A stretch of DNA of 17,861 nucleotides from positions 1 to 17,861 of the forward strand of contig JAJYDP010000019.1 of NCBI GenBank assembly GCA_021777365.1. Direction: 5' to 3'. Under the pieces are notes generated by a model. That model had not been told where the DNA came from, did not search any database, and saw nothing but the letters and a program-made list of their open reading frames with translations. Shown in pieces: positions 573 through 17,861 of this stretch (positions are counted from its first letter, which is position 1; each line of letters begins with the position of its first letter). The DNA comes from Chloroflexota bacterium (GTDB lineage Bacteria > Chloroflexota > Limnocylindria > Limnocylindrales > CSP1-4). A program made the translations under genes and the position numbers.

Positions 573-587
573 GGCCGGATCCCGGAT

Positions 588-1238
588 TCAGGCCGCGCGC
601 GCGAACGCCGCGGCGCGGTCGGCGGCCGGAGGAGCCGCGGCGCGGGCGCCCGAGGGGAGGGCCGAGGGCACGGACAGCGGGCTCAGGTCGGGATACGTCG
701 GCGTGGCCAGGATCTCGAAGGTGTTGAGTGGCCAGTACCGCAGCCAGGCCCGACCGATGACGTTCGCGATCGGCACCGGCCCGAACACCCGGGAATCGCT
801 GGAGTTCTCGCGGTGGTCGCCCATCACGAAGAGCGAGTTCGCCGGCACCACCCAGTGGTCCTGGCCCCCGAGGGGTTCCGTGGTCTGTCCCGGGAACACG
901 TACGGCTCGCTGATCTCCTGGCCGTTGATGAACACGTGGCCGTTGCGGAGGTCGAGGGTGTCGCCGGGCAGGCCGATCACGCGCTTGATGAACGGGGTCG
1001 AGCCGGGTGCTGCGCCGGGCGGCATGAAGACCACGATGTCGCCCCGCTTGTACGGGTCGAACCGAGGGGTGAGCTTGTCCACCAGCACGTACTGGTGCGG
1101 CAGCAGGGTGTTCTCCATGCTCATCTGCTCGACCTGGTACGGCTGGGCGATGAAGGTCTGGATGACCAGAAAGATGATGAGGGTAAGGACGAGTGTCTCG
1201 ACCGCCTCCAGGAGGCAGCCGCGCGCGCGCTGGGTCAC
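588..1238 (-). CDS. lepB: Signal peptidase I
   Basis: Type I signal peptidase (family S26), which cleaves signal peptides from exported proteins on the outer face of the cytoplasmic membrane. A single N-terminal membrane anchor (about residues 10-31) is followed by the catalytic serine in QMSMENTL (Ser40, box B), the general-base lysine in FIKRVIGLPGD (Lys85, box D) and box E, GDHRENSSDSRVFG. The product is about 216 aa from this start, a normal length for short Gram-positive-type enzymes. An Ala-rich tail follows the catalytic core. The frame is open back to an ATG at 1334, but that lies upstream of a good minus-strand -10 box (TATACT, 1275-1270) and would overlap the divergent gene. The GTG at 1238 is therefore the preferred start, although it lacks a strong Shine-Dalgarno sequence. 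Confidence 0.93.
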   Translation of the reverse strand: MTQRARGCLLEAVETLVLTLIIFLVIQTFIAQPYQVEQMSMENTLLPHQYVLVDKLTPRFDPYKRGDIVVFMPPGAAPGSTPFIKRVIGLPGDTLDLRNGHVFINGQEISEPYVFPGQTTEPLGGQDHWVVPANSLFVMGDHRENSSDSRVFGPVPIANVIGRAWLRYWPLNTFEILATPTYPDLSPLSVPSALPSGARAAAPPAADRAAAFARAA

Positions 1239-1269
1239 GCGGGACGAACGTCTCGGATCACAAGGCGGG

Positions 1270-1275
1270 AGTATA
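1270..1275 (-). promoter_or_regulatory. -10 box for lepB
   Basis: TATACT on the minus strand, 31 nt before the proposed GTG start of lepB, matches the sigma70-type -10 consensus at five of six positions. No convincing -35 hexamer is visible 16-18 nt upstream. It sits in the short divergent region shared with the Ig-like/propeller gene. Confidence 0.5.
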
Positions 1276-1313
1276 GGGCCAAGTGACGCACGGGGCGGGG
1301 AGCCGCTCCGTGG

Positions 1314-1319
1314 TAAGGT
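1314..1319 (+). promoter_or_regulatory. -10 box placed for leaderless transcription
   Basis: TAAGGT ends 8 nt before the GTG at 1328. This is the spacing expected when transcription begins at or next to the start codon, giving a leaderless mRNA. There is no properly spaced Shine-Dalgarno sequence before 1328. The prediction rests on motif and spacing only. Confidence 0.4.
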
Positions 1320-1327
1320 CAGAGCTC

Positions 1328-3331
1328 GTGTCACGCCACACCGTCGAGCTCGCCGGGCGCCTCATCGCCATCGCCGTGCTCGTGCTGATCCTGGCGAACG
1401 CCACCCTGGTGGACCGTGTCCCGCCTGCCGTCCAGGGCGTCACGCTCGGCCGGACCACCGGCGACGCCCACGTCGGCCTGACCCACACGACCGTCGACGT
1501 GCAGTTCACCAAGGCCGTCGACCAGGGTTCGGCCGAGCTCCATTTCCGGCTCGTCCCGGAGGTCCAGGGCACATTCTCGTGGGACGGCGCCCGGACCATG
1601 ATCTTCACGCCCGCCCAGAAGCTCCCGGTCGCGACGCAGTTCGTGGTGACGATCTCGCCCGGGTTCCGCGACGTGAACGGCAACGTCGCCGACCAGGGCG
1701 CCACCACGTTCACGTTCCGCACCATCGGGCTCCCGACGCTCACGTCGAGCATCCCCGCCGCCGGCGCGACCGACGTCGCGGTCAGCTCGACGATCACGCT
1801 GACGTTCGACCGGCTGATGGACGTCGGCGCGACACAGGCCGCGATCGGCATCCTGCCCTCGACGCGCTTCCGCGCCACCTGGAGCGGCCTGACGGTGACG
1901 CTGTCGCCGCTCGACCCGCTCTCCTTCGGCACGCACTACATCGTCACGGTGTCCGACCTCGCCGCCGACACCGACGGCAATTCTCCGGCCGGCCCCATCG
2001 CGGTCGACTTCACCACGGTCAGTGCCGGGCTCGGGCTGATGAGGGTCATCCCCGCCGACGGCTCGGCCGGGGCACCCGTGAACGGCCCCATCGCGATGCT
2101 GTTCGACGGGCCGGTCGATCCGGGGAGCGTCAGCGGGCTGGTCCAGGTCACGCCGCCCGCCCCCGGGGAACTCCGGGTGGAGACGGTGCCGGACGACGTG
2201 CCTGGCGCCACGCCGCCCGCGAGCGTCCTGGTGTACCAGCCAGCGGCGCCACTGGCCCCGCACACCACCTACACCGTTGAGTTGCTGGGTGGCGTCAAGC
2301 GCGCCGACGCTCCGGACATGGTTGCGGCGGGACGGACCTGGTCGTTCACCACGGGCGCTCCCACCGACTCGCTCCAGAACCAGGTGCTGTTCCTCTCCGC
2401 CCGCACCGGGGTCCGCAACCTCTGGGCGATGAACCCGGACGGCAGCAACCCCAGGCAGCTGACGGACGAGCTCGCGCCCGTGACGGCCTACGACGTCACC
2501 GCCGACGGGAAGCGGGTCGTCTACGCCTCGGGCGGCCTGGTCGAGACGTTCAGGCTCGGCGATTCGAGTCCCACCGTCCTCACCCCGACAGACGCGTTCG
2601 ACTACGCCCCCCGCCTTCTGCCCGATGGCAGCGCGGTCATCGTCGGGCGACGCGGGAGGCTCGCCGGCGATGACCAGGGCATCTGGCTCCTCCCGATCGA
2701 CTCGAACCAGCAGGCGCGCCAGCTCCTGGTAGGCGGCGCGCCGCCTACCGGCTCGGTCAACGCCGCCGCCGACACCGCGGACGCCGTGCAGCCGGGGCCG
2801 TGGTCGACGCTCACGGCCGTCTCGACGGACGGCGCCACCGCACTGGCGGTGGACTCGAGCGGTCGGATCGTGCGCATCGACCTGGCCACCGGAGCGGCGA
2901 CCCCGACGGGGCTGCGCGACCCTGCGGGACCCATGCAGTGGTCCGACCGCGAACACGGGTTCGTGGTGGACGCGCTGGGCACGGGCCAGGGGAACGCCTC
3001 CGCGTGGGTGCTGCGCGACGGGGCGGCACCCCTGGCCCGGGGAGGGCCGTGGCTCAGCGTCTCGTCGCAGGGGGACATGGCATGGCTCTCGGGCGGCGGC
3101 CTGCAGCACGTGACGTTCCAGCCGGCGGGCGGCGGTGCCCCGCTGGCGCTGAGCGCCGCGACCGACCTGTCCGACCGGGAGCCCTCTTTCTCGCCGGCGG
3201 GCGACCTGGTCGTGTTCGTGCGGGTCCCGGCGGCGGGTGGCCCGAGCGCGGGTATCTGGGAGGTGCGCACGGACGGGCGGGAGCTGCGTCAGCTGTCGCC
3301 GGACGGGACGCAGCCGCGCTGGCTGCCATAG
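1328..3331 (+). CDS. Membrane-anchored protein with Ig-like (Big_5) repeats and TolB-like propeller
   Basis: The product is about 667 aa. An N-terminal hydrophobic segment (about residues 8-27) looks like an uncleaved signal anchor, placing the rest outside the membrane. Three bacterial Ig-like units of the SbsA/Big_5 type follow (about 30-130, 132-228 and 232-345). They show the usual features: xxPxxGAxxVxVxxxIxLxFDxxMD, W/F-rich middle strands, and endings such as FTFRTI, VDFTTV and WSFTTG. The C-terminal half (about 350-667) has TolB/WD40-like blades: LWAMNPDGSNPRQLTD, YDVTADGKRVVYASGG and the final IWEVRTDGRELRQLSPDG. The protein is probably a surface binding or scaffold protein, with no enzyme motif. 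The frame is open from 1283, but the GTG at 1328 fits the TAAGGT box and puts the anchor at the extreme N terminus. Confidence 0.75.
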   Translation: MSRHTVELAGRLIAIAVLVLILANATLVDRVPPAVQGVTLGRTTGDAHVGLTHTTVDVQFTKAVDQGSAELHFRLVPEVQGTFSWDGARTMIFTPAQKLPVATQFVVTISPGFRDVNGNVADQGATTFTFRTIGLPTLTSSIPAAGATDVAVSSTITLTFDRLMDVGATQAAIGILPSTRFRATWSGLTVTLSPLDPLSFGTHYIVTVSDLAADTDGNSPAGPIAVDFTTVSAGLGLMRVIPADGSAGAPVNGPIAMLFDGPVDPGSVSGLVQVTPPAPGELRVETVPDDVPGATPPASVLVYQPAAPLAPHTTYTVELLGGVKRADAPDMVAAGRTWSFTTGAPTDSLQNQVLFLSARTGVRNLWAMNPDGSNPRQLTDELAPVTAYDVTADGKRVVYASGGLVETFRLGDSSPTVLTPTDAFDYAPRLLPDGSAVIVGRRGRLAGDDQGIWLLPIDSNQQARQLLVGGAPPTGSVNAAADTADAVQPGPWSTLTAVSTDGATALAVDSSGRIVRIDLATGAATPTGLRDPAGPMQWSDREHGFVVDALGTGQGNASAWVLRDGAAPLARGGPWLSVSSQGDMAWLSGGGLQHVTFQPAGGGAPLALSAATDLSDREPSFSPAGDLVVFVRVPAAGGPSAGIWEVRTDGRELRQLSPDGTQPRWLP

Positions 3332-3365
3332 GCCGGCCGCCGGGGGCCTTCCGGGCGGAACCGCA

Positions 3366-3374
3366 TGCTACACT
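3366..3374 (+). promoter_or_regulatory. Extended -10 promoter for hppA
   Basis: TGCTACACT is an extended -10 (TGN followed by TACACT), 75 nt before the hppA GTG. The -35 region is weak, as is common with extended -10 promoters. It lies just after the stop of the propeller gene, giving hppA its own transcript. Confidence 0.5.
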
Positions 3375-3397
3375 CCGGCCGGCCGAAAGCCGCGTGC

Positions 3398-3420
3398 CAT
3401 CCCCGCTCGCAGCGGGGATG
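3398..3420 (+). promoter_or_regulatory. Perfect leader hairpin upstream of hppA
   Basis: CATCCCCGCT and AGCGGGGATG form a perfect 10-bp stem with a 3-nt CGC loop inside the predicted hppA 5' leader. A T-rich tract (TTTCCTT) follows directly, and the Shine-Dalgarno GGGAGG lies at 3434-3439. A GC-rich stem plus T-tract resembles an intrinsic terminator, so it may act as an attenuator. It could instead be a 5' mRNA-stabilising stem. Confidence 0.6.
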
Positions 3421-3449
3421 TTTCCTTGCCTACGGGAGGCGTGTCCGAC

Positions 3450-5675
3450 GTGAGCGGTCTAGCGGGTGCGATGCCCTGGCTCATCCCGATCGCCGTCCTG
3501 GCGACGGTCCTTTTCGCCTTGTACCTGGCGCGCGACGTGCTGTCGCACGATACGGGGACGCAGGCGATGCAGGACGTCGCCGGCACGATCTACGAGGGCG
3601 CGGTGGCGTTCATCCGGCGCCAGTACACCACCATCGCCCTGCTGGCCCTGGTGGTGGCCGTGATCATCGCCGTGGTGATCGGGCTGGTCGAGACGAAGCA
3701 GGTCTCGGACACCGACGTCTACGGCATGGACCTCGGCATCCGCACCGGCGTCGCCTTCCTGGTCGGGGCGGCGTGCTCCATGGCCTCGGGCATCATCGGC
3801 ATGTACGTCAGCGTCAAGTCCAACGTGCGCACCGCGGCGGCCGCCCGCCGGAGCCTGGTCGAGGCGGTGAAGGTGGCCATGCGTGGAGGCGCCGTCTCTG
3901 GCTTCCTGGTGGTGGCCCTGTCGCTGGCCGGCGTGTGGGCGATGTTCGTCGCCTACGGCGGCTTCCAGCACCCGGACCAGGCGCCCTTCCTGATCGTGGG
4001 TTACGGCTTCGGCGCGTCGTTCGTGGCGCTCTTCGCGCAGCTCGGCGGCGGGATCTACACCAAGGCGGCGGACGTGGGCTCCGACCTGGTGGGCAAGGTG
4101 GAAGCCGGAATCCCCGAGGACGATCCGCGCAACGCCGGCGTGATCGCCGACCTGGTGGGCGACAACGTGGGTGACTGCGCGGGCCGCGGTGCCGACCTCT
4201 TCGAGTCGACCGCGGTCGAGAACATCGGCGCCATGATCCTCTCGGTGGGCATCTACAACGTCGCGGTCAGCGCGGGCTGGCCCAGCCCGGAATCGTGGAT
4301 CTTCTTCCCCCTCGTGGTGCGCGCCTTCGGGCTCCTGGCCACCATCGTCTCGCTGTACACGCTGGGCGGCCGCGAGGACGAGGACCCCATGAACATCCTC
4401 AACCGCGGCTACTGGCTCACCACCGGCCTGAGCGCGGTGGGGATGCTGATCGTCACGAACGTGATGATGCAGACCGGCCAGCAGACTGGTGCGTCCGGGA
4501 TCCCCACCTGGCTCTGGTTCTTCGGCGCCGGCCTGGTCGGCCTGGCCACCAGCATCGCCTTCGTCTACATCACGCAGTACTACACGGCCGGCTCGTTCCG
4601 CCCCGTGAAGGAGATCGCCGAGGCGTCCAGGACCGGTCCGGCAACCAACATCATCGCTGGCACGGCGGTCGGCTACGAGACCACGTTCGCCACCGCCATC
4701 GTCATCGGGATCGCGCTGCTGCTCAGCCACTGGCTGGGCTCGCAGGCCAACCTGCTGAACGCCCAGGGGCAGAACATCGGCGGCATCTTCGGGACCGCGG
4801 TCGCGACCATGGGCATGCTCATGACGTGCGCGTACGTGCTCGCCATGGACACTTTCGGGCCCATCACCGACAACGCGGGCGGCATCGCCGAGTTCTCGCG
4901 CAGCGAGGCCGGTGCCCGCGAGATCACCGACCGCCTCGATGCCGTCGGCAACACCACCAAGGCGCTGACCAAGGGCTACGCGATCGCGTCCGCCTCGCTG
5001 GCCGCCTTCCTGCTCTTCAGCGCGTACATCGACAAGATCAACCTCATCCTGTCGCGGCAGATCGCGGCGGGCAAGCAGGGCGTCCAGCTCATGACCGCCG
5101 TGGACCTCTCGAACATCGGCGTGTTCGTGGCAGCCCTGATCGCTGCGATGCTGGTCTACTTCTTCAGCTCATTGGCCATCCGGGCGGTGGGCACCACCGC
5201 CCAGTCGATCATCGTCGAGGTGCGCCGCCAGTTCCGCGAGATGCCGGGCATCATGGACTACACCCAGCGCCCGGACTATGCGCGCGTGGTGGACATCACG
5301 ACGCGGGCCGCCCTCCGCGAGATGGTGGCGCCGGGCGCCGTGGCGGTCGCGACGCCCATCGTCGTGGGCCTCGTCCTCGGCTACCAGGCCGCGGCCGGCC
5401 TGCTGATGGTGGGCACCATCGCCGGTGTGCTGCTCGCCTCGGTCCTCAACAACGGCGGCGGCGCGTGGGACAACGCCAAGAAGTACATCGAGTCCGGGCA
5501 CCTGCTCGACGCGGACGGCAACGTGCTCGGCAAGAAGACCGCCGCGCACGCGGCCGCGGTCGTCGGCGACACCGTCGGCGACCCATTCAAGGACACTGCG
5601 GGGCCCTCGCTTCACGTGCTCGTCAAGCTGCTCGCGACGCTCACCCTGGTCTTCGCGCCGCTCTTCATCCGCTAG
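3450..5675 (+). CDS. hppA: Membrane-bound proton-translocating pyrophosphatase
   Basis: An integral membrane pyrophosphatase that couples PPi hydrolysis to ion pumping. The product is about 741 aa with some 16 predicted helices, a normal length. The PPi/Mg-binding region DVGSDLVGKVEAGIPEDD (from Asp208) and VGDNVGDCAGRGADLFES are intact, as is the C-terminal GDTVGDPFKDTAGPSLH. The subtype-diagnostic GNTTKALTKG (500-509) has Lys504 and Thr507, which marks K+-independent and most likely H+-pumping enzymes. Enzymes of the K+-dependent class have Ala at the Lys504 position. The GTG at 3450 has GGGAGG 10 nt upstream; an in-frame ATG at 3471 is a possible alternative. The gene has its own promoter and hairpin leader, and uppP follows after 66 nt. 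The PPi released by the nearby tRNA synthetases and other anabolic reactions is its substrate. Confidence 0.97.
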   Translation: MSGLAGAMPWLIPIAVLATVLFALYLARDVLSHDTGTQAMQDVAGTIYEGAVAFIRRQYTTIALLALVVAVIIAVVIGLVETKQVSDTDVYGMDLGIRTGVAFLVGAACSMASGIIGMYVSVKSNVRTAAAARRSLVEAVKVAMRGGAVSGFLVVALSLAGVWAMFVAYGGFQHPDQAPFLIVGYGFGASFVALFAQLGGGIYTKAADVGSDLVGKVEAGIPEDDPRNAGVIADLVGDNVGDCAGRGADLFESTAVENIGAMILSVGIYNVAVSAGWPSPESWIFFPLVVRAFGLLATIVSLYTLGGREDEDPMNILNRGYWLTTGLSAVGMLIVTNVMMQTGQQTGASGIPTWLWFFGAGLVGLATSIAFVYITQYYTAGSFRPVKEIAEASRTGPATNIIAGTAVGYETTFATAIVIGIALLLSHWLGSQANLLNAQGQNIGGIFGTAVATMGMLMTCAYVLAMDTFGPITDNAGGIAEFSRSEAGAREITDRLDAVGNTTKALTKGYAIASASLAAFLLFSAYIDKINLILSRQIAAGKQGVQLMTAVDLSNIGVFVAALIAAMLVYFFSSLAIRAVGTTAQSIIVEVRRQFREMPGIMDYTQRPDYARVVDITTRAALREMVAPGAVAVATPIVVGLVLGYQAAAGLLMVGTIAGVLLASVLNNGGGAWDNAKKYIESGHLLDADGNVLGKKTAAHAAAVVGDTVGDPFKDTAGPSLHVLVKLLATLTLVFAPLFIR

Positions 5676-5741
5676 CCGCCGTCCGGAGGCGGTCGCGGTC
5701 ATCCGCGGCCGCCCCTGCGGCCGGCCCGCCCGGGGAACCTC

Positions 5742-6569
5742 ATGCCGCTCGTGCTCCAGGCGCTCGTGATCGGGATCCTGCAGGGCCTGACCGAATTCCT
5801 GCCGATCTCGTCCTCGGCCCACCTGATCGTGGTGCCGGAGTTTCTCGGCTGGAAGGACCCCTTTCTCAACAGCGCCGGCTTCGACGTCATGCTGCACGCG
5901 GGCACGCTGGCCGCGCTGCTGATCTACTTCTGGCGCGACCTCGTGCGCCTGCTGACGGCCTGGCTGGGGTCGATCCGCGAGCGGCGGATCGGTGCCGACC
6001 CCGACCGGCGGCTGGCCTGGCTCATCCTCGTGACCATGATCCCGGGGGCCGTCCTCGGCGTCGCGCTGGAGAGCTTCTTCGACACGTTCTTCCGCGAGCA
6101 CATCATCCTGGTCGCGGTGTTCCTGGCCCTGGGCGCGGGGATCCTGTGGCTCGCGGAGCGGCTGGCGTTCCTGCAGCGCGGACTCGACAACGTGAACATC
6201 CGGGACGCGATCGTGATCGGGGTCGCCCAGGCGTTTGCCCTGTTCCCCGGGTTCAGCCGGTCGGGGATGACCATCGCGGCCGGTCTCTACACGGGGCTCA
6301 CGCGCGAGGCGGCCGCGCGCTTCTCGTTCCTGATGGGCACGCCGATCATCGCCGGCGCGGCGGCGTGGAAGGCCCGCGAGCTGCTGCACGCCGGCCTCCC
6401 GTCGGCCGACCTCCTCGCGCTCGGCGTGGGAATGCTGGGGGCTGCCGTGGCCGGAGTGCTGGCGATCGCGTTCCTGCTGGACTACCTGCGGCGGAAGACC
6501 ACCGGCCCCTTCATCGCCGAGCGGCTCGTCATGGCCGCCCTGGTGGTGGTCTTCGTGCTGGCGCGCTGA
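5742..6569 (+). CDS. uppP: Undecaprenyl-diphosphate phosphatase (BacA type)
   Basis: A membrane phosphatase that converts undecaprenyl diphosphate to the monophosphate, recycling the lipid carrier for peptidoglycan and other envelope polymers; overexpression is known to give bacitracin resistance. The product is 275 aa, the usual size. The first signature GLTEFLPISSSAH spans residues 15-27 and the second, ALFPGFSRSG, falls around 166-175; these form the active-site halves of the inverted-repeat fold. The remainder is strongly hydrophobic with about seven to eight helices. The ATG at 5742 has GGGGA 6 nt upstream. The 66-nt spacer after hppA holds GC-rich stems but no U-tract, so readthrough from hppA is plausible. 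Confidence 0.97.
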   Translation: MPLVLQALVIGILQGLTEFLPISSSAHLIVVPEFLGWKDPFLNSAGFDVMLHAGTLAALLIYFWRDLVRLLTAWLGSIRERRIGADPDRRLAWLILVTMIPGAVLGVALESFFDTFFREHIILVAVFLALGAGILWLAERLAFLQRGLDNVNIRDAIVIGVAQAFALFPGFSRSGMTIAAGLYTGLTREAAARFSFLMGTPIIAGAAAWKARELLHAGLPSADLLALGVGMLGAAVAGVLAIAFLLDYLRRKTTGPFIAERLVMAALVVVFVLAR

Positions 6570-6596
6570 CAGCGCCACGGTGAGGGCAGCCCCGGC

Positions 6597-7100
6597 ATGG
6601 AGGTGATGAAGCAGCTCCGCCACGGCGCGATCCGCGACCTGCTCGCCCAGCGGAACGTGCGGACGCAGCAGGAGCTCGCAGCCGCGCTCCGCGAGCGCGG
6701 CTTCCGGGCGACCCAGGCCACGATCAGCCGCGACGTGGCCGAGCTCGGGCTCGTCAAGGTGCACCGTGGCGGGTCGTACGTGTACGCGCTGCCGCCCCGC
6801 CTCGCCGAGACGGAGCCGAGCGCCGAGGACCGGCTGGCGGGGTTGCTCCGGAACCTGCCCGTCGACGTGCGAGAGGCGGGCCTCCTGCTGGTGGTCAGGA
6901 CGCTCTCGGGCAGCGCGCATGCGATCGCGTCGGCGCTCGACCGGGCCCACTGGCCCGAGGTCGTCGGTTCGATCGCCGGCGACGACACCCTCTTCATCGC
7001 CTTCTCGGATCGGGGCTCCCTCCGCCGCGGTCGCAAGCGCCTGGTACGGCTGCTCGACCAGCCCGGCCGCACGCCGGACCCGCCGTCACATCCGCTTTGA
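6597..7100 (+). CDS. argR: Arginine repressor ArgR
   Basis: A hexameric arginine-responsive transcription regulator. The product is 167 aa. The N-terminal winged helix (about 6-65) carries the recognition-helix signature ATQATISRDVAELGLVKV, with the Ser44-Arg45 pair that contacts DNA in the family. The C-terminal oligomerisation and arginine-binding domain (about 75-153) ends its core with GSIAGDDTLFIAF; the GDDT (128-131) supplies the ligand-contacting aspartates. The gene starts 27 nt after uppP and is probably cotranscribed with it. No arginine biosynthesis or catabolism gene is in the window, so its targets lie elsewhere. The Pro-rich C-terminal tail is atypical but short. Its stop codon overlaps the -35 box of the greA promoter. 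Confidence 0.95.
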   Translation: MEVMKQLRHGAIRDLLAQRNVRTQQELAAALRERGFRATQATISRDVAELGLVKVHRGGSYVYALPPRLAETEPSAEDRLAGLLRNLPVDVREAGLLLVVRTLSGSAHAIASALDRAHWPEVVGSIAGDDTLFIAFSDRGSLRRGRKRLVRLLDQPGRTPDPPSHPL

Positions 7101-7126
7101 CACCAGCGGCGGGAGCGCCCTAGAAT
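7097..7126 (+). promoter_or_regulatory. Near-consensus sigma70-type promoter for greA-lysS-serS
   Basis: The consensus -35 TTGACA (7097-7102) and TAGAAT (7121-7126) are separated by 18 nt. The start site should fall near 7133, giving a leader of about 80 nt before the greA GTG. The -35 overlaps the argR stop codon. This is the strongest promoter match in the window. Confidence 0.8.
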
Positions 7127-7137
7127 CCTCCGCTGGT
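7102..7137. repeat. Perfect 8-bp inverted repeat around the greA -10
   Basis: ACCAGCGG (7102-7109) and its exact complement CCGCTGGT (7130-7137) are separated by 20 nt that contain the TAGAAT box. The left arm begins at the last base of the -35 and the right arm covers the expected transcription start. The placement suits an operator for a dimeric repressor. A weak argR-end hairpin is the alternative, although there is no U-tract. Confidence 0.45.
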
Positions 7138-7212
7138 CGAACTCCTGACGCGCCCGCTCGCGCGCGCCGGGGGTTCTTTCTCTTGCAGCCTGTCATCCCA
7201 CGGGAGCGGTTC

Positions 7213-7677
7213 GTGAACAACAAGCCCGGTTACCTCACCCGCGATGGGCTCGAGAAGCTGCGAGCCGAGCTCGACCAGCTGGTCAACGTCCGTCGCGCGG
7301 AGGTCGCGGCCCGCATCCACGACGCCAAGGAGCACGGGGACCTCGCAGAGAACGCCGAGTACGAAGACGCCAAGAACGAGCAGGCCTTCGTCGAGGGCCG
7401 GATCCAGACGCTGGAGTCGCTCATCCGGAACGCCGTCCTGATCGACGAGCACCACACGTCCGACCACGTCCAGATCGGCTCGACCGTGGTCGTCGAGTCC
7501 CTGGACGGCAAGGAGACGTTCCACATCGTCGGCTCCGCCGAGGCCGACCCCGGGTCGGGCCGGATCTCCAACGAGTCGCCGGTGGGGCGGGCACTGCTCG
7601 GGCACCGGAAAGGCGACAAGGTCGTGGTCCACGTCCCGAGCGGGGACTTCACCTACGCGATCGTGAGCATCGGCTGA
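7213..7677 (+). CDS. greA: Transcription elongation factor GreA
   Basis: It binds the RNA polymerase secondary channel and stimulates cleavage of backtracked RNA. The product is 154 aa, close to the usual 158. The N-terminal coiled-coil finger holds the tip motif HGDLAENAEYEDAKNEQ, with the acidic pair Asp43 and Glu46 (equivalent to E. coli Asp41 and Glu44). The C-terminal FKBP-like domain contains ISNESPVGRALLGHRKGD. The frame is open far upstream into argR, but the GTG at 7213 has GGGAG 6 nt before it and matches the family N terminus. It is the first gene behind the strong promoter at 7097-7126, with lysS following after 27 nt. Confidence 0.97.
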   Translation: MNNKPGYLTRDGLEKLRAELDQLVNVRRAEVAARIHDAKEHGDLAENAEYEDAKNEQAFVEGRIQTLESLIRNAVLIDEHHTSDHVQIGSTVVVESLDGKETFHIVGSAEADPGSGRISNESPVGRALLGHRKGDKVVVHVPSGDFTYAIVSIG

Positions 7678-7704
7678 CGCCGCGACCGACCGCCGGAGGG
7701 AACG

Positions 7705-9339
7705 GTGTACTGGGCCGATGAGCTCGTCTCGCGCCTGAGCGGTCCCCAGGTCGTCAACGATTCGAAGACGCCGTCCGGGACCGTCCACGTCGGGAGCCTG
7801 CGCGGCCCGGTGGTCCTCGACGCGATCTGGCGTGCGCTCCGTGAGCGCGGACTCGAGGCCCGCCTGCTCTACGGCGTGGACGACATGGACCCCATGGACG
7901 CCCAGGCGCTGCTGACGCCCGACGCCGTCGAGCGCTACATGGGGGTGCCGCTGGCGCGGGTGCCCGCCCCGGAGGGGAGCAGCGCCCCCAGCTACGCCCG
8001 CCATTTCGCCGGACTCTTCCTCGCAACCTTTGCCGGGCTCGGGATCCACCCCGAGACCTACTGGATGAGCGAGGTCTACCCGACGGGCGCGGTCGACCCG
8101 TACATCCGGCTTGCCCTGGAGCGCGCGGACCGCGTGCGCGAGATCTACCGGCGCATCGCCAACGTCCAGCACCCCGCGGACTGGCATCCGGTCCAGGTGG
8201 TATGCGAGCACTGCGGGAAGGTGGGGACCACGATCGTCACCGACTGGGACGGCCAGCGCGTCTTCTACGAGTGCCGCCGGGACCTGGTCGCCTGGGCCTA
8301 CGGATGCGGCCACTCGGGCTGGGTGGAACCGTTCGGCGGCCGGGGGAAGCTGGGCTGGAACCTGGAGTGGGCGGCGCAGTGGAGCATCTTCGGGGTCACC
8401 ATCGAACCCTGCGGCAAGGACCTGGCGACGGCCGGCGGGTCGCGCGACAGGGCGGACGCGATCGCCCGCGAGATCTTCGAGCGCGAGCCCCCCATCAACC
8501 TGCCGTACGAGTTCCTGAACATCGGCGGCCGCAAGATGAGCACCAGCAAGGGCCGCGGGGCGGCGGCGCACACCATGGCCGAGGTGCTGCCGCCGGAGCT
8601 GCTGCGGTTCCTGTTCCTGCGGTACCGGCCCAGCCACGCCATCGACTTCGACCCGGCCGGCGACACGATCCCGCGCCTGTTCGACGAGTTCGACCGGGTG
8701 GCGGCTGCCACGGCGGGGCACGAGGTGAAGGGCGAGCTGCCGCCCGAGCACGATCGGATCTTCGCGCTGAGCCTGCTCGACCCGGATGCCGACCCGGCCG
8801 CGGAGGCGGCCCGCTTCCGCCCGGACTTCTCCCAGGTCGCCATGCTGGTGCAGCTGCCCGGCATCGACGTGGATGCGAGGGTCGCCGCCGAGAAGGGCGC
8901 ATCGCTGGACCTGGCCGAGCAGGTCATCCTGGCGGACCGCGTCCGTGCGGCGCGGGCGTGGCTCGAGTCGTACGCGCCGGATCGCTCGAAGATCGCCGTC
9001 CGTGACGAGCTTCCGGCCGAGGCGCGCCACGCGCTCGCCGACGAGCAGCGGACCTTCCTTGGCGCGCTCGCCCTGTCGGGCGAGGTGGCCCGGCCCGGTT
9101 CCGGGGAGGCCTGGCAGGACCTGATCTTCCGGGTGGCCGAGGAGGCGGCACTGCCGGCCGGGCGCGCATTCGCGGCGATCTACCTGGCGTTCCTGGGCCG
9201 CACCAACGGGCCGCGTGCCGGCTGGCTCCTGGCCGCACTGGAGCGCGAGTTCACCATCGAGCGCCTTCGCCAGGCGGCGGGGTGGAGCCTCGAGCCCGAG
9301 GGAGACGGGCCCGCCCGGGCAGAGGAGGGGATGGCATGA
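7705..9339 (+). CDS. lysS: Class I lysyl-tRNA synthetase
   Basis: It charges tRNA-Lys with lysine. This is the class I (archaeal-type, LysK) enzyme, not the usual bacterial class II form. The Rossmann-fold signatures are TPSGTVHVGSLRG (HIGH equivalent, His28-Ser31) and KMSTSK (277-282). An inserted Cys cluster, CEHC (167/170) with later Cys190 and CGH (201-203), has the expected zinc-binding look, followed by the class I LysRS hallmark GRGKLGWNLEWAAQW. The C-terminal part is an all-helical anticodon-binding domain. The product is 544 aa, typical of the family. The GTG start has GGAGG 5 nt upstream. The stop overlaps the serS start (ATGA), implying coupling. No class II lysS is present in the window, so this may be the cell's only LysRS. 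Confidence 0.96.
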   Translation: MYWADELVSRLSGPQVVNDSKTPSGTVHVGSLRGPVVLDAIWRALRERGLEARLLYGVDDMDPMDAQALLTPDAVERYMGVPLARVPAPEGSSAPSYARHFAGLFLATFAGLGIHPETYWMSEVYPTGAVDPYIRLALERADRVREIYRRIANVQHPADWHPVQVVCEHCGKVGTTIVTDWDGQRVFYECRRDLVAWAYGCGHSGWVEPFGGRGKLGWNLEWAAQWSIFGVTIEPCGKDLATAGGSRDRADAIAREIFEREPPINLPYEFLNIGGRKMSTSKGRGAAAHTMAEVLPPELLRFLFLRYRPSHAIDFDPAGDTIPRLFDEFDRVAAATAGHEVKGELPPEHDRIFALSLLDPDADPAAEAARFRPDFSQVAMLVQLPGIDVDARVAAEKGASLDLAEQVILADRVRAARAWLESYAPDRSKIAVRDELPAEARHALADEQRTFLGALALSGEVARPGSGEAWQDLIFRVAEEAALPAGRAFAAIYLAFLGRTNGPRAGWLLAALEREFTIERLRQAAGWSLEPEGDGPARAEEGMA

Positions 9340-10664
9340 GCATCGGCCTGCAGCGTCTGCGGGAGGACGCGGACCGGGTCCGCCAGGGCGCCATCGACAA
9401 GGGCGAGGATCCCGCCGTGGTGGACGTCGCGCTGCAGCTCGATGCGCACCGGCGCAGCCTGCTCGGCGAGGGCGACGCCCTGCGTGCCGAGCGGAACGCG
9501 CTCTCGAAGCGGATCGGCGACGCCATCCGGGGCGGAACGTCCCCGCAGGGGCCGGAGGTGGAGGCGCTGCGACGGTCGTCGACGGAGGCAGGCCAGCGGA
9601 TCGCCGCGATCGACGCGGAGCTGGCCGCCGTCGAGGCGGACCTCGAGGACGCGCTGCTCCGCATACCGAACCCGGCGGACCCCGAGGTCCCGGTGGGCGG
9701 CGAGGACGCCAGCGTGATCGTGCGGACGTGGGGCGACCCGGCACCGCACGACGAGGCCACCGGCGGGGGGCCGGATGGCGCCGCCCCGTGGACCCGGCGT
9801 CCCCACTGGGAGATCGGCGAGGCGCTGGGCATGCTGGACCTCGCGGCCGGCGCCAAGATCAGCGGATCCGGGTTCCCCGTCTATCGCGGGTCGGGCGCGG
9901 CGCTCGAGCGGGCGCTGATCAACTGGTTCATCGGGGTCCACACCCGCGAGCACGGCATGACCGAGATCTGGCCGCCGGCGCTGGTCAATAGCGCCTCCGC
10001 GCGCGGGACCGGGCAGATCCCGGACAAGGAAGAGCTCATGTACGTCGCCACCCGCGACGAGCTGTACCTCGTGCCCACGGCGGAGGTCCCGGTGACCAAT
10101 CTGCACCGGGACGAGATCATCGAGGCCGAGCGGCTCCCGATCCGGTACTGCGCGTACACACCCTGCTTCCGCCGGGAGGCGGGCGCCGCGGGCAAGGACA
10201 CCCGCGGCATCCTGCGCGTCCACCAGTTCGACAAGGTCGAGATGGTGCTGTTCGAGCGGCCCGCCGACTCGGGCGCGGCGCTCGAGTGGCTGACCCGGGC
10301 GGCCGAGACGCTGCTGCAGCGGCTCGGGCTGGCCTATCGCGTCAAGCTGATGGCCACCGGCGACATGGGGTTCGTGCAGGCCAAGAAGTACGATCTGGAG
10401 GTCTGGGCGCCGGGGGTGGAACGGTGGCTCGAGGTCAGCTCCGTGTCGAACTTCCGGGACTACCAGGCGCGCCGGATGAACATCCGGTGGCGCGCGGAGC
10501 CCGGTGCGAAGCCCGAGATCCTGCACACGCTCAACGGCTCGGGCCTGGCGCTGGCCCGGACGTTCGCCGCGATCCTGGAGGTCTACCAGCGGGCGGACGG
10601 GTCGGTCGTGGTGCCCCAGGTGCTCCGCCCGTTCCTGGGCGAGCGGATCGGCACGCCGGCCTGA
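9336..10664 (+). CDS. serS: Seryl-tRNA synthetase
   Basis: A class II aminoacyl-tRNA synthetase that charges tRNA-Ser (and tRNA-Sec where present). The product is 442 aa. The N-terminal antiparallel coiled-coil arm (about 26-110) grips the long variable arm of the tRNA. The catalytic core has TAEVPVTN (from 248), motif 2 with CFRREAGAAGKDTRG (277-291), and motif 3 with LNGSGLALARTFAAILE (399-415). An Asp/Gly/Pro-rich stretch at 133-150 sits at the arm/core junction and looks like a loop insertion. The ATG overlaps the lysS stop by four bases, with the strong GAGGAGGGG 5 nt upstream, which fixes the start. The next gene begins 7 nt after the stop. Confidence 0.97.
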   Translation: MSIGLQRLREDADRVRQGAIDKGEDPAVVDVALQLDAHRRSLLGEGDALRAERNALSKRIGDAIRGGTSPQGPEVEALRRSSTEAGQRIAAIDAELAAVEADLEDALLRIPNPADPEVPVGGEDASVIVRTWGDPAPHDEATGGGPDGAAPWTRRPHWEIGEALGMLDLAAGAKISGSGFPVYRGSGAALERALINWFIGVHTREHGMTEIWPPALVNSASARGTGQIPDKEELMYVATRDELYLVPTAEVPVTNLHRDEIIEAERLPIRYCAYTPCFRREAGAAGKDTRGILRVHQFDKVEMVLFERPADSGAALEWLTRAAETLLQRLGLAYRVKLMATGDMGFVQAKKYDLEVWAPGVERWLEVSSVSNFRDYQARRMNIRWRAEPGAKPEILHTLNGSGLALARTFAAILEVYQRADGSVVVPQVLRPFLGERIGTPA

Positions 10665-10671
10665 GCGCGCC

Positions 10672-11151
10672 ATGGGACTCCCGGCCGTCGGCGACCTCGC
10701 CCCCGACTTCACGCTCCGCGACCAGGACAGGGAGCCCGTGACGCTGAGCGACCTGCGGGGCAGGCCCGTCATGCTCGTCTTCTTCCCGCTCGCCTTCAGC
10801 TCCACCTGCACGCGCGAGCTGTGCGAGATCCGCGACGACTTCGGCGCGTACGAGGGACGCGATGTCACCGTGCTCGGCATCAGCGTCGACTCCACCTACG
10901 CGCTTCGGGCGTGGCGGCAGGACCAGGGCTACCGCAACCGGTTCCTCTCCGACCGCTGGCCGGTGGGAGCGGTCGCGAAGCTCTACGGCGTCTGGAGCGA
11001 GGAGCAGGGCCAGGCGGATCGGGGGACGTTCATCCTGGACGCGGCCGGCGTGGTGCGCTACGCGGTGCACAACCCCGCGAGCCAGGCGCGGGACGAGGGC
11101 GCGTACGTCGCCGCGCTCGACGTCATGGGCCTGCGTGGGAGATCCGCGTAA
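10672..11151 (+). CDS. AhpE/BCP-like thiol peroxidase (peroxiredoxin)
   Basis: It reduces H2O2 or organic peroxides through a peroxidatic cysteine. The product is 159 aa with a thioredoxin fold. The N terminus PDFTLRDQDREPVTLSDLRG and the LVFFPLAF segment resemble mycobacterial AhpE, as do WPVGAVAKLYGVW and RGTFILDAAGVVRYAV. The active-site PxxxSxxC gives Cys46 as the peroxidatic residue. A second cysteine, Cys51, lies five residues on (C-x4-C), the spacing of the resolving Cys in BCP/PrxQ enzymes. AhpE of Mycobacterium tuberculosis is one-Cys, so this protein may combine an AhpE-like body with BCP-like chemistry. The ATG at 10672 lies 7 nt after serS, so it is cotranscribed and probably coupled. 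Confidence 0.9.
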   Translation: MGLPAVGDLAPDFTLRDQDREPVTLSDLRGRPVMLVFFPLAFSSTCTRELCEIRDDFGAYEGRDVTVLGISVDSTYALRAWRQDQGYRNRFLSDRWPVGAVAKLYGVWSEEQGQADRGTFILDAAGVVRYAVHNPASQARDEGAYVAALDVMGLRGRSA

Positions 11152-11267
11152 GCGCGTACCGGTTCGGCCCACCCGATCGAGCAGGGCCACCTGGTCCCGC
11201 GCCGTACCGCGCCAGTGACCTTTGGCCCTGTCGAGAGGCGCGCCCGGCTGCGGAGACTCCGTCCTCG

Positions 11268-11534
11268 ATGACAGTTGCGGTTGTCCCCATCGAGCGCGCG
11301 GGCAGGCGCCGGTCGCTCGAGGAAACCTCCACGGACCACCTCATCCGGCGCATCCGCTGGCACCGCGCGGTGAAGCGGGCCAACCCGCGGGGCTCGGCGC
11401 TCTGGCAGGCGGCCGACCTCCGGGAGCGCTGGTTGATCGCGGTGCTGCATCGCCGGTTCGGCGTCACCACGATCACGCCGGACGGCCTCGACTGGCTGAT
11501 TCTCTGGGAGCGCCAGGCGGACCGGACGGCCTGA
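11268..11534 (+). CDS. Small basic protein, family not recognised
   Basis: An 88-aa open frame with strong G/C preference at third codon positions, as in neighbouring genes. The product is Arg-rich and has four tryptophans (RIRWHRAV, SALWQAAD, RERWLIAV, DWLILWERQ). It is predicted to be mostly helical with a short turn at FGVTTITPDG. No signal peptide or Cys is seen. It lies 116 nt after the peroxiredoxin gene and 299 nt before the Cys/His-module operon, so it may be its own unit. A GGAG is present 12 nt before the ATG, a long spacing. Function unknown; the helical Arg/Trp pattern would suit RNA or protein contact, but that is only a guess. Confidence 0.6.
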   Translation: MTVAVVPIERAGRRRSLEETSTDHLIRRIRWHRAVKRANPRGSALWQAADLRERWLIAVLHRRFGVTTITPDGLDWLILWERQADRTA

Positions 11535-11833
11535 AAGCCGCCACCGGGTCCGGCGCCGGCGGGGATCGAGGGTAACCATTCGGTCGGGCGCCGCCGCGCG
11601 CCACCGGGCGCCGCCGGGCGCCGAGGGTTCACGACGAGGCCGCCGCGCCCCCTGCGCACCCTGTCCGCCCGCGACGAGGGAATCGCGCGGATGCGGTACG
11701 CTCTCGGCCAATCGAACGCGCGATGAAGCTCGCGCCTGGTTCCCGCGGGTGCGGGTGATGGCTTCTGGTCGGTGACCGGGAGCCGTTTCTTTTTCCCGGC
11801 GCGTGTTCCCGGCGTGCGAGAGGCGGGACAGCC
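11535..11833 (+). other. Non-coding gap and leader before the Cys/His-module operon
   Basis: Nearly 300 nt without a convincing gene. In order it contains a GC-rich 10-nt tandem repeat (11586-11625), a possible weak -10 (TACGCT, 11697-11702), an 11-codon open frame MKLAPGSRGCG (11723-11758), and a CCGGGA arm (11776-11781). Two TTCCCGGCG copies (11793-11801 and 11806-11814) follow, either of which can pair with that arm. A T-rich tract (11786-11794) lies between the arm and the first copy. A GAGAGGCGGGA ribosome site precedes the GTG at 11834. The layout resembles a structured leader, possibly an attenuator. Confidence 0.4.
11586..11625. repeat. Imperfect 10-nt tandem repeat, four units
   Basis: Consecutive decamers GGGCGCCGCC, GCGCGCCACC, GGGCGCCGCC and GGGCGCCGAG. 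Units 1 and 3 are identical; units 2 and 4 each differ from them at two positions. The stretch is non-coding and could be slippage in very GC-rich DNA or a protein-binding array. Confidence 0.45.
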
Positions 11834-13189
11834 GTGCACACGCCGACGATCGCCCGGGGGATCCTGCGAGGAATGGACAGGATGGACGAGATCGCCACGA
11901 CGGACGCCGCGGGCGATGCCGCCTGCGAGGTGTGCCGTGTCCAGCTCGACGCCGTCGCACGGCGCATCGGCTGGATCGAGGCGGAAGGCCTGAACGACGG
12001 CCCGTTCCTCCACCGGTTCGTCGCCTCGGGCGGCTACTGCCCGCGCCACCTGCGGCAGGTGCTCGGCACGGCGGAGGGTGGACGCTGGGCCGTCCCCCTG
12101 CGCCTGGCGCTGCACGAAGTCGGGCGGCAGACGGCAGCCGCCTCCGCGGGCCTCGCGTTCGATCCGTGCCCGCTCTGCGAGCTCGAGACCTGGACCGGCG
12201 AGTACGCCGTCTCGGTCCTCGCCTCGGGGCGGACGCCGGTGACCGGCGGGGCGCGGCATCTCGGCCCCGGGGCATTCGTGTGCCTGCGGCACGCGGCCGA
12301 GGAGCTGCTGGTGCGTCCCGGAAGCGCCGCGCTGGAGCGACTGCAGCGCGCCCTGGGGGCCGCCTCGAGCCCGGCCCTGCACCGCAGGCTGGCCGCGGTC
12401 GCCGGTCTCGACCCGGCAGGGGCGATCCGGGCGCCGGCCTCCGGGTCCGACCTCGGGGCGGCGGATGTGTCCGCTGCCCCGGCACTGTCGCCAGCGTGGC
12501 TCAGGGCCGAGGTGGAGGCCGATCGCTGCCCTGCGTGTTCGGCGGCGGTCGCCGCAGAGAAGGCCCTGCTGCAGCGCGATCGTGGCCCCGCCGAGGTCCG
12601 GCTGTGCGCGCACCACGCCTGGGACGCCGCCTGGGCCGCACCCGCCCTCGTCGAGGAGGTGGCCCGTCGGGCCGTTGACGGCGCCCGCAGCTGGGCGGAT
12701 GCCCATGCGGCCGGCGAGCTTCCGCTCCCTGCGCCGGGCACCGCGGCATGGCCGGACGGTCCACCCGCGCGCGGACGGCGAGGGATCGTGGGCCGCCTGA
12801 CCGGCCGGCAGCGCGCCGCCGCCGCAGGCCGTCCCTGCACGGTGTGCCTGGCCCGGGCCGCAGCCGTGGGTTCCCGCCTGCGGCTGCTCGACTCGCAGGC
12901 CGAGGACATCTCCGCAGCCCGCGCGTGGCGGGGCCTCTGCGTCCGGCACCTGCTCCGGGCCGCCCCCGAGACGCGCGCTGCGTGGCCTCTGCTGCTGGCC
13001 GCCGCGCACTCCGCGAGCGGAGACCTGGAGCGGGCGCTGGTGTCCGGGCACGATCCGTCGGGTGGAGCCCTCGGCGCGGGACCGGCCATCCGGGACGCCG
13101 CCGCCTGCCTCGCCGGCGACGCCGTCGTGCGTGACCCGTGGTATTCGCCCGAGGTCCCGGGACTCGGGCCGTCGATCTGGCCGCTGTGA
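11834..13189 (+). CDS. Four-module Cys/His (C-x2-C...C-x2-H) protein, DUF6062-like
   Basis: A 451-aa protein of unknown function built from four probable zinc-binding modules. They are C31-x2-C34-x34-C69-x2-H72, C112-x2-C115-x34-C150-x2-H153, C232-x2-C235-x22-C258-x2-H261 and C335-x2-C338-x30-C369-x2-H372. The third Cys is usually preceded by a small or hydrophobic residue and sits in a motif such as GGYCPRH or RGLCVRH. Module 1 shares NDGPF...GG(Y)C..H with the minus-strand protein at 15369-16133. The CPLC...GFC..H style resembles the DUF6062 family. The linkers are Ala-rich helices; a basic linker lies at about 311-333. There is no signal peptide or membrane segment, so it is probably cytoplasmic. 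The GTG at 11834 has a nearby ribosome site; the ATG at 11882 is an alternative. The next gene overlaps the stop by 4 nt. Confidence 0.75.
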   Translation: MHTPTIARGILRGMDRMDEIATTDAAGDAACEVCRVQLDAVARRIGWIEAEGLNDGPFLHRFVASGGYCPRHLRQVLGTAEGGRWAVPLRLALHEVGRQTAAASAGLAFDPCPLCELETWTGEYAVSVLASGRTPVTGGARHLGPGAFVCLRHAAEELLVRPGSAALERLQRALGAASSPALHRRLAAVAGLDPAGAIRAPASGSDLGAADVSAAPALSPAWLRAEVEADRCPACSAAVAAEKALLQRDRGPAEVRLCAHHAWDAAWAAPALVEEVARRAVDGARSWADAHAAGELPLPAPGTAAWPDGPPARGRRGIVGRLTGRQRAAAAGRPCTVCLARAAAVGSRLRLLDSQAEDISAARAWRGLCVRHLLRAAPETRAAWPLLLAAAHSASGDLERALVSGHDPSGGALGAGPAIRDAAACLAGDAVVRDPWYSPEVPGLGPSIWPL

Positions 13190-13923
13190 TCGACCAGGTG
13201 GCGGCTGAGCAGCGGACGGTCAGCTCGGCGGCTAACTGGAGCGCCGGCCGGCCGCATCCTCTCGGCGATCTCGAGATCCAGTACCTCTGCCTGTTCGGTG
13301 CGGATGCCATCGACAGGCCCGAGACTCGCGTACAGCTGTGGATGGCGTGGGGCATGTGTCATCGTCACGCGCTCGGGTTCCTGGCGGTCGAGGCGTCCCT
13401 GCACCAGGGCTGGCTGTTCCGGCCCGCCATCGTCTACGACGACGTGATCGACCGCGGCAGGTACGCGCTCGCCCCGAGACGCCTGTTCGAGCGGGCCCGT
13501 GTCGGGGCGTCCCTCCGGGAGGCGGAACCCTGCCAGCCCTGCGCCCTCGGGCTGACGCCCGACGAGCCGGCAGAGCCGGAGGCCGCGACCATCGTCGACG
13601 AGGGCCGCGGCCTCGACCCGCTCCGCTCGTTCGCCTCGGAGACGCGTCGGCACTGGGAACGGTGGGTCTGCGGGAAATGCGCCGGATCGGAGTCCCCGAC
13701 TCGCTGCCGGCTGCACCTGGCGGAGGATCTCGACGCGGGCAGGGGCGCCGGGCTGCCGTCGCAGCGGGTGCTGGTCGAGGATCTCTCGTCGCACCTCCGG
13801 GCCTACGCGCGCTCCTTCGGATGGTCGAGCCGCGGGACCGAGACGGCGGCCGACCGGGCCGCGCTCATCGGTGCCGTCGGATGGTGCGGCGGATGGGAGA
13901 GCATCCTCCGATTCCTGCCCTGA
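13186..13923 (+). CDS. Second Cys/His-module protein, partly degenerate
   Basis: About 245 aa from a GTG that overlaps the previous stop as GTGA. The frame is open to a GTG at 13138, but that stretch has poor third-position GC while the upstream gene's frame stays good, so 13186 is preferred. Module 1 is degenerate: YLCLFG keeps Cys35 but has Gly38 where the second Cys is expected, then GMCHRH (Cys58/His61). Module 2 has CQPC (116/119), then a compact CGKC...CRLH (162/165/174/177), so it may bind one or two metals. The segment around 70-105 (HQGWLFRPAIVYDDVIDRG) looks folded and may be a small specific domain. It ends 60 nt before the convergent gene. Function unknown; the shared modules and coupling suggest it works with the preceding protein. 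Confidence 0.7.
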   Translation: MIDQVAAEQRTVSSAANWSAGRPHPLGDLEIQYLCLFGADAIDRPETRVQLWMAWGMCHRHALGFLAVEASLHQGWLFRPAIVYDDVIDRGRYALAPRRLFERARVGASLREAEPCQPCALGLTPDEPAEPEAATIVDEGRGLDPLRSFASETRRHWERWVCGKCAGSESPTRCRLHLAEDLDAGRGAGLPSQRVLVEDLSSHLRAYARSFGWSSRGTETAADRAALIGAVGWCGGWESILRFLP

Positions 13924-13983
13924 GAACCGGAGACGGGGCGCGTGATCGCCGGCAGGCCACCTCGCGCCTGGACGCCTCTCGCG
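13924..13983. other. Convergent intergenic with a GC stem
   Basis: Two operons end face to face here. GGCGCG (13937-13942) can pair with CGCGCC (13963-13968) across a 20-nt loop that itself contains GCCGGC. There is no T-tract on either strand, so a classical intrinsic terminator is not supported. The stem could slow polymerase from both sides. Confidence 0.3.
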
Positions 13984-15372
13984 TCAGGCCACCCGGCTGC
14001 CCTCGCCCGACACGGCCGCGACCGGCTCGGCGCCGGACGAGGCACGATCGGCCCACGCCCGGCGGAGCAGGCGCAGCAGCCCCGTCGCGGCCTCCGAGGT
14101 CGTCGCCGGGTATGAGAAGGCGATCGCGCGCGCAGCTGCTGCCGTGGCCGGCTGGCTGAGCTCGACCCGACCGACGAGCGGCGAGAGCGTGATCGCGACG
14201 CCCTCCAGGTGCTCGAGGGCGGCCGAGCGGAACTCGCCCGCCTGCAGGAGCGCGAACCGTGTCGGGGTGAGACCGACCGTGATCGCGCGAGGCGCGCCCT
14301 CGCGGCGCGGCGCGTAGAACGCCCCCAGGAGCTGCTCGGGCGCAAGGTGCTCTCGCATCGAGTCAACCTCGCGGACGGCGTCCTCGGCCTGGCGGAACAG
14401 TGCCGCCGGGGCCGCGTCGAACTCGACGGCGGCCGGCGCGTATCGCCGGACCAGTGTCCGCGCGCCGTCCCCGGGCAGGAACCGGAGGAGCAGATCGCGG
14501 AGCACCTCGGCTTCGGGACGCAGCTCGCCCGGGAGCGCGAACCTGGCCCCGCCCCCGCGGGTCTGGACGTGCAGCTCCAGGACGTCGCGGCCGGACAGAC
14601 GGACGGCGCGCAGCGCCTCGAGCGCCAACAGGCGGGCGTCCACGCCCCAGTCGAAGAGGTATCGGTCGGGCGGCAGGTGATCGACCATCCAGATCAGCTG
14701 GCGGTCGGACAGGAGCAGCAGCCCGGCTCGTCGCTCCGCCCCGCGGCGCGGCATGCCCAGGCGTCCGGTCCGGACCGAGTCGGGCGGTCGCTCGATGGCG
14801 TAGAGAAGGCGCTCGTCATCGTCGAGGAGCCCCTCGAGACCGCGGATGAAGCGCGGTGGAAGGCGGTCCAGGCGGTACTCGGAACGCGAGTGGGGCGTGG
14901 TGAACCGCGCCTGCCCCGGGTCGCCGCCGACGGATCGCCAGGCCCGGCCGCCGAGGATGCGTCCGGCCTGCCGGCGAACCCGGAAGCGCTGGCGGGCGTC
15001 GAGCGCGAGCCGCTCGGCCGCCGTCGCGTCGACCCACTGCGCGGCCACTGCACGGGCCACCGTCCTGACGACCGGCTTCGGCGGCAGCGCCTGGCCCGCA
15101 AGGCGCGTGACCAGCACGGTGCGATCGGTCTCCACCAGGGCCCCGGCGAGCTCGGCAGCCACGCGACAGCCGGGGAAGCTGGAGCTCGGCAGGGCCACGA
15201 CCGCGGCCAGCTCGGTCCCGTCGCCGGCGTCGGAGTCGACCAGGTACGCCCGATCGAGACCGAGCCACAGTCCACCCGGGCGCGCCGACGTGACGCGCGG
15301 AACGTCGGCGTCGACGACCACGTCGAGGCCGGGGCCGAGCGCCTCGTCGATGGCGAGTTCGACGGTGGTCAC
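13984..15372 (-). CDS. Degenerate pyrophosphatase-like domain fused to two PH-like domains
   Basis: A 462-aa protein of unknown function. The first 110 residues look like a shortened family I inorganic pyrophosphatase: GLDRAYLVDS, then DGTELAAVVALPSSSFPGC (51-69), then VAAELAGALVETD. The family normally reads DGDPxDxLVL...FPGC...xGxxxMxDE. Here two of the three catalytic aspartates are replaced (Thr53, Ala56), so hydrolysis is unlikely. Residues about 174-300 resemble a bacterial PH/YokE-like domain (DDDERLLYAIERP, GLLLLSDRQLIWMVD, LEALRAVRLSGRDVLELHV). Residues about 345-440 look like a second copy (LAPEQLLGAFYAP, ITVGLTPTRFALLQAGEF). The start is the GTG at 15372, overlapping the upstream stop as GTGA; the longer open frame back to 15630 is antisense-like and Gly/Arg-rich. 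The domain calls are by eye. Confidence 0.7.
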   Translation of the reverse strand: MTTVELAIDEALGPGLDVVVDADVPRVTSARPGGLWLGLDRAYLVDSDAGDGTELAAVVALPSSSFPGCRVAAELAGALVETDRTVLVTRLAGQALPPKPVVRTVARAVAAQWVDATAAERLALDARQRFRVRRQAGRILGGRAWRSVGGDPGQARFTTPHSRSEYRLDRLPPRFIRGLEGLLDDDERLLYAIERPPDSVRTGRLGMPRRGAERRAGLLLLSDRQLIWMVDHLPPDRYLFDWGVDARLLALEALRAVRLSGRDVLELHVQTRGGGARFALPGELRPEAEVLRDLLLRFLPGDGARTLVRRYAPAAVEFDAAPAALFRQAEDAVREVDSMREHLAPEQLLGAFYAPRREGAPRAITVGLTPTRFALLQAGEFRSAALEHLEGVAITLSPLVGRVELSQPATAAAARAIAFSYPATTSEAATGLLRLLRRAWADRASSGAEPVAAVSGEGSRVA

Positions 15373-16133
15373 GGCCGCGGCGCCGTGCCGGCGAGGACCG
15401 CGACCACCTCCGCGACCGCCCGACGCTCGTCCTCGGCCAGCTCGTGGCGGCGGTCGAAACTCGAGTGGAGTACGAACCCGTCCAGCCGCTCCACCAGCTC
15501 GTCGAGCCGCGCCAGCTGACCCGCCGTCAGCGCCTGCGCCGCCTCTCCCGTCCGTTCCGTGGCGGCGGTTGCGAGGAGCGTTCCCAGGTGCGCCAGGCAG
15601 AACGGGGCGGCCGCCAGCGCCTCCCGCCACGGCCCGGCCGGCTCCGCGAGCGCCACGAAGCGCACCGCTGCGCGATCGCAGGCGCCGGCCTCCAGCGCGC
15701 AGATCGGGCAGTCAACCGCGGCTTCCGTCGCGTGTCTGAGCGCCGACGGCCGTCCGCGCCGTTGCCGGAGCGCGCCACGAAGACCGGCAACCCGGGCCGC
15801 GAGCACGGAGCGTCCCAGGATGGCCACGCCCAGCGACCCGCCCGCCTGGTCTCGTTCGACCCGCACCAGCGCCCGCTCGTGGGGAGCGCAGAACCCGCCA
15901 CCCGCCAGCAGCCGTTCCCGGAACGGGCCGTCGTTGACGTTCTCCCACAGGAGCGCCTCGAGATACCGCCGTCCACTCCGCTCGATCACGACGCACAGCG
16001 GACAGCCACCGGACCGCACCGCGGCGATGAGCGCGTCGTCTCCCAGCTCGCGCTCCGGCAGCGAGGGTGCGTCGGTCGGCCGCGGCCCCAGTCCGGATCG
16101 GTCCTGCAACGCCATGTGAGTGGGCGCCCTCAC
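15369..16133 (-). CDS. Two-module Cys/His protein, DUF6062-like
   Basis: A 254-aa cytoplasmic-looking protein with two well-formed modules: C44-x2-C47-x34-C82-x2-H85 and C142-x2-C145-x33-C179-x2-H182. Module 1 (CPLCVVIERSGRRYLEALLW, ENVNDGPFRERLLAGGGFC, then APH) is the best match in the window to the DUF6062-type pattern CPLC...GFC..H. It shares NDGPF with the first module of the plus-strand protein at 11834. The C-terminal part is helical with an acidic, Arg-containing stretch and contains no Cys. The GTG at 16133 overlaps the upstream stop (GTGA); an ATG at 16115 is possible. Its own stop overlaps the start of the PH-like gene, so all three minus-strand genes are coupled. A structural zinc-binding role is inferred; no catalytic residues are apparent. 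Confidence 0.8.
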   Translation of the reverse strand: MRAPTHMALQDRSGLGPRPTDAPSLPERELGDDALIAAVRSGGCPLCVVIERSGRRYLEALLWENVNDGPFRERLLAGGGFCAPHERALVRVERDQAGGSLGVAILGRSVLAARVAGLRGALRQRRGRPSALRHATEAAVDCPICALEAGACDRAAVRFVALAEPAGPWREALAAAPFCLAHLGTLLATAATERTGEAAQALTAGQLARLDELVERLDGFVLHSSFDRRHELAEDERRAVAEVVAVLAGTAPRP

Positions 16134-16618
16134 GTCCCCGGGACCGTGCCGGGGTCATCGGCCGCCGGCGCGGCTGGACCGGCTGGCCGGGCCCCGGCCG
16201 CGCGCCGCACGATCACGGACGGGTGCGAGCGGGCCGCGGCGAGGGATGCGTCGGCCGATGGATCACCGGCAAACGCAGCGAGGGCGCGTACCGCGGCGGC
16301 GGCCCGGTAGGGGTCGTCCTGAAGCCGGGAGAGCCGGCCCAGCGGCTCGATGGCCGGCATCGTCTTCCGCTCGCCCAGCAGGCGCGCGGCCAGCATGGCG
16401 CTCTCCGTGTCCGGGTGATCGAGGGCCCACAGGAGGCCGGCGTCGAAGTCCCGGGGGGTCTCCAGCAGCGAGCCGCAGCGCTCGCACCGGGTGCTTTCCC
16501 ACGGGTTCATGGCATAGCAAACCGGGCAGAGGCGAGTCGGGCCCTCGCCACCGCGGGGCACCCCACCAGGTCCGGCAGCACCGGAACGCCGCACCAGGTT
16601 CGACGCCGGGTCAGGCAC
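16130..16618 (-). CDS. Zinc-ribbon protein with HEAT-like repeats
   Basis: A 162-aa protein. A short basic/Gly-rich N terminus precedes a rubredoxin-like zinc ribbon, CPVC (31/34) and CERCG (45/48), eleven residues apart. The rest is helical pairs of the HEAT/PBS-lyase type (HPDTESAMLAARLLGE, MPAIEPLGRLSRLQDDPYRA, AAVRALAAFAGDPSAD, HPSVIVRRAAG), suggesting a small protein-interaction solenoid of two to three repeats. It heads the minus-strand operon. The GTG at 16618 has AGAGG 6 nt upstream and GGAGG directly abutting it. It was probably recruited as an adaptor for the downstream Cys/His and PH-like proteins, inferred only from coupling. Confidence 0.75.
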   Translation of the reverse strand: MPDPASNLVRRSGAAGPGGVPRGGEGPTRLCPVCYAMNPWESTRCERCGSLLETPRDFDAGLLWALDHPDTESAMLAARLLGERKTMPAIEPLGRLSRLQDDPYRAAAAVRALAAFAGDPSADASLAAARSHPSVIVRRAAGARPAGPAAPAADDPGTVPGT

Positions 16619-16657
16619 CCTCCACCTCTCGCTGCAGCGCGGTCGAGGTAGAAGCCG

Positions 16658-16702
16658 TCAGCGGAACCGCGGGTCGTCGCCGTTGCGACGGGCGGGCTTC
16701 AT
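16658..16702 (-). other. Possible 14-codon leader ORF
   Basis: An ATG at 16702 opens a frame encoding MKPARRNGDDPRFR and ending at 16658, 39 nt before the GTG of the zinc-ribbon gene. It begins 10 nt after TAGAAT, so it would be translated leaderless. It is very basic. It may be a leader peptide, a tiny protein or chance. Confidence 0.3.
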
Positions 16703-16712
16703 CGCCCGGCGC

Positions 16713-16718
16713 ATTCTA
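16713..16718 (-). promoter_or_regulatory. -10 box for the minus-strand Zn-ribbon/Cys-His/PH operon
   Basis: TAGAAT on the minus strand, identical to the greA -10, about 95 nt before the zinc-ribbon gene. No -35 match is present at 16-18 nt; an ATGACA lies only 10 nt upstream, which is too close. Confidence 0.45.
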
Positions 16719-16753
16719 GCGCGCGCCTGTCATCCCTCCCCCGCGAGCGCCAT

Positions 16754-16787
16754 CGCCTCTCGCGTGCCGTCGCCTCCCGCGTGCCGT
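16754..16787. repeat. 17-nt tandem repeat, two units
   Basis: CGCCTCTCGCGTGCCGT (16754-16770) is directly followed by CGCCTCCCGCGTGCCGT (16771-16787), with one mismatch, and then by the first bases of a decayed third unit. It is non-coding and lies between the two divergent promoters. Confidence 0.7.
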
Positions 16788-16812
16788 CGCCCCGCTCGCC
16801 CGTCTCCGGCGG

Positions 16813-16826
16813 CCGTGGGACCACGG
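16813..16826. promoter_or_regulatory. Palindrome upstream of the eno promoter
   Basis: CCGTGG-GA-CCACGG is a perfect 6+6 inverted repeat centred about 22 nt upstream of the eno -35. It is a possible transcription-factor site; such short GC palindromes also arise by chance in this composition. Confidence 0.3.
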
Positions 16827-16838
16827 GCCGAGTGGCCG

Positions 16839-17861
<1,023 letters not shown>

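Follow-up and report, generated by a model that had tools for sequence, protein, structure and literature searches.

Repeated Cys/His modules related to DUF6062 in a Chloroflexota locus, and a MoxR gene neighbourhood in relatives of the module proteins

What are the proteins with repeated Cys/His motifs encoded on a contig of a probably uncultured Chloroflexota bacterium (JAJYDP010000019.1, positions 1 to 17,861, the whole stretch analysed and hereafter the window), and with what might they work? Two related proteins at the locus consist of repeated Cys/His modules predicted to bind metal, and a third, degenerate copy accompanies them. Relatives of these proteins adjoin genes of a MoxR-type machine, which provides a first lead on the function of an uncharacterised family.

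Cys/His modules and membership in DUF6062

The two genes and their modules are as follows.

11834..13189, plus strand: four-module gene (AlphaFold2 model with a predicted local distance difference test score, pLDDT, of 74.7 and a predicted template modelling score of 0.77)
11924..12049, plus strand: feature in this gene, nearest to DUF6062 module 1 (hhalign score 81.3)
12167..12292, plus strand: feature in this gene
12527..12616, plus strand: feature in this gene
12836..12949, plus strand: feature in this gene, nearest to DUF6062 module 2 (score 53.1)
15369..16133, minus strand: DUF6062 protein, 254 residues from a GTG start
15879..16004, minus strand: DUF6062 module 1, C44-H85, spacing 34
15588..15710, minus strand: DUF6062 module 2, C142-H182, spacing 33

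The original prediction had described recurring Cys/His modules at this locus, with 33 or 34 residues between the second and third Cys and a resemblance to DUF6062. The repeated modules were confirmed, the spacings in the 15369 protein were measured at 34 and 33, and this protein scored 37 bits against DUF6062 (Pfam PF19538), above the gathering cut-off of 27, and carries the two C-x2-C-x(32-34)-C-x2-[HD] modules of the family pattern. The identity of the parts of the locus is well supported; the accompanying interpretation, a zinc-stabilised scaffold or signalling complex, was supported only in part.

In the DUF6062 alignment seven ligands are invariant in 34/34 rows (two rows being the same gene). 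A treble-clef zinc finger combines a zinc knuckle on a beta-hairpin with two further ligands where a helix begins. Cys3His zinc sites mostly load unaided. Cys3His ligation would suit [2Fe-2S] clusters as well, so that an iron-sulfur cluster or another metal could occupy the modules in place of zinc; this is improbable, since the eighth DUF6062 ligand is Asp in 22 of the 34 rows and zinc is the usual metal of C-x2-C pairs that open a helix.

By eye, a second DUF6062 group adjoins ABC ATPase and permease-like genes (loci L100, L103, L104, L107, L117 and L118). In a distant genome (L145, 7168-10756), one run holds DUF6062, a coiled open reading frame (ORF), Zn-ribbon/HEAT, an MFS transporter and a pyrophosphatase.

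MoxR genes beside relatives of the module proteins

A gene run with MoxR, DUF58 and DUF4129 recurs beside relatives of the module proteins. In the relative G023, MoxR (189 bits to AAA_3, 35 bits to bpMoxR) is followed by DUF58, the same order as in Bat-type MoxR-DUF58 operons. Operons that pair MoxR with DUF58 have been described before and are linked to stress (PMC11834572), and MoxR proteins with VWA partners are credited with client remodelling and a role in metal insertion (PMC13036017). MoxR-vWA ternary conflict systems join a specialised MoxR and a vWA protein to a VMAP, iSTAND, FtsH or beta-propeller component, and the main text consulted on them mentions neither DUF58 nor DUF4129 (PMC7159879). 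The comparison with these systems covered the MoxR of G023.

We infer that the module proteins may be helical adaptors, stapled by metal, that work for a MoxR-type machine. No MoxR was seen in the window. DUF6062, which has the same sites, had no MoxR gene nearby in any of 32 loci. In the literature searched (subscription papers mostly outside), DUF6062 was not mentioned and so had no described function, and neither MoxR, DUF58 and DUF4129 together nor MoxR, DUF58 and Chloroflexi together were found.

The PH protein and the flanks of the locus

The remaining genes are as follows.

13186..13923, plus strand: gene
13984..15372, minus strand: PH protein, 462 residues
16130..16618, minus strand: Zn-ribbon/HEAT protein, first codon uncertain
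16951..17859, plus strand: enolase, cut by the window end
11268..11534, plus strand: conserved 88-residue ORF (G071 copy at the same place 83% identical)

The PH protein is a degenerate pyrophosphatase-like domain fused to a PH fold, an unusual protein; its C-terminal part is unassigned. Residues about 4-139 align with nearly whole family I inorganic pyrophosphatases (PF00719; 93.7%, score 50.3, against a top score of 19.8 in 60 shuffles), but the acidic motif is lost: the first Asp of DGDPLD is kept in 3/9 aligned rows, the second and third in 0/9. These Asp are catalytic acidic residues of the family, and in this respect residues 4-139 do not fit an active family I pyrophosphatase. None of the 9 rows matched a Pfam family at an E-value of 1 or below. 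In a model of low confidence (pLDDT 46), residues about 155-300 align in fold with solved PH domains, at the level of the PH superfold; by sequence, nothing above shuffles was found against bPH_2. Elsewhere (L080, L083, L088 and L090), PH genes adjoin two paired MutS-domain-V proteins (identified with Pfam in L083 and with our own profiles), followed in G023 by enolase.

The DUF6062 gene stop and PH gene start overlap by 4 nucleotides. From an ATG start at 16115, the start used by public copy P0005, the DUF6062 protein has 248 residues; its GTG start, if used, shares 4 nucleotides with the Zn-ribbon/HEAT stop. In 5 relatives the Zn-ribbon/HEAT gene lies immediately upstream of the PH gene, and the enolase flank is a synteny anchor between window and relatives. 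The 88-residue ORF had no NCBIfam match at E 1e-5. A 190-residue Ala-rich, membrane-like ORF (3-572, minus strand) is cut by the window edge.

The MoxR/DUF58/DUF4129 run gives the four-module relative of DUF6062 a testable context, and the presence of four modules in a single chain makes that protein well suited to metal counting and pull-down. If the proposed adaptor role is true, these proteins would be new kinds of subunit for the widespread, poorly understood MoxR chaperone systems.
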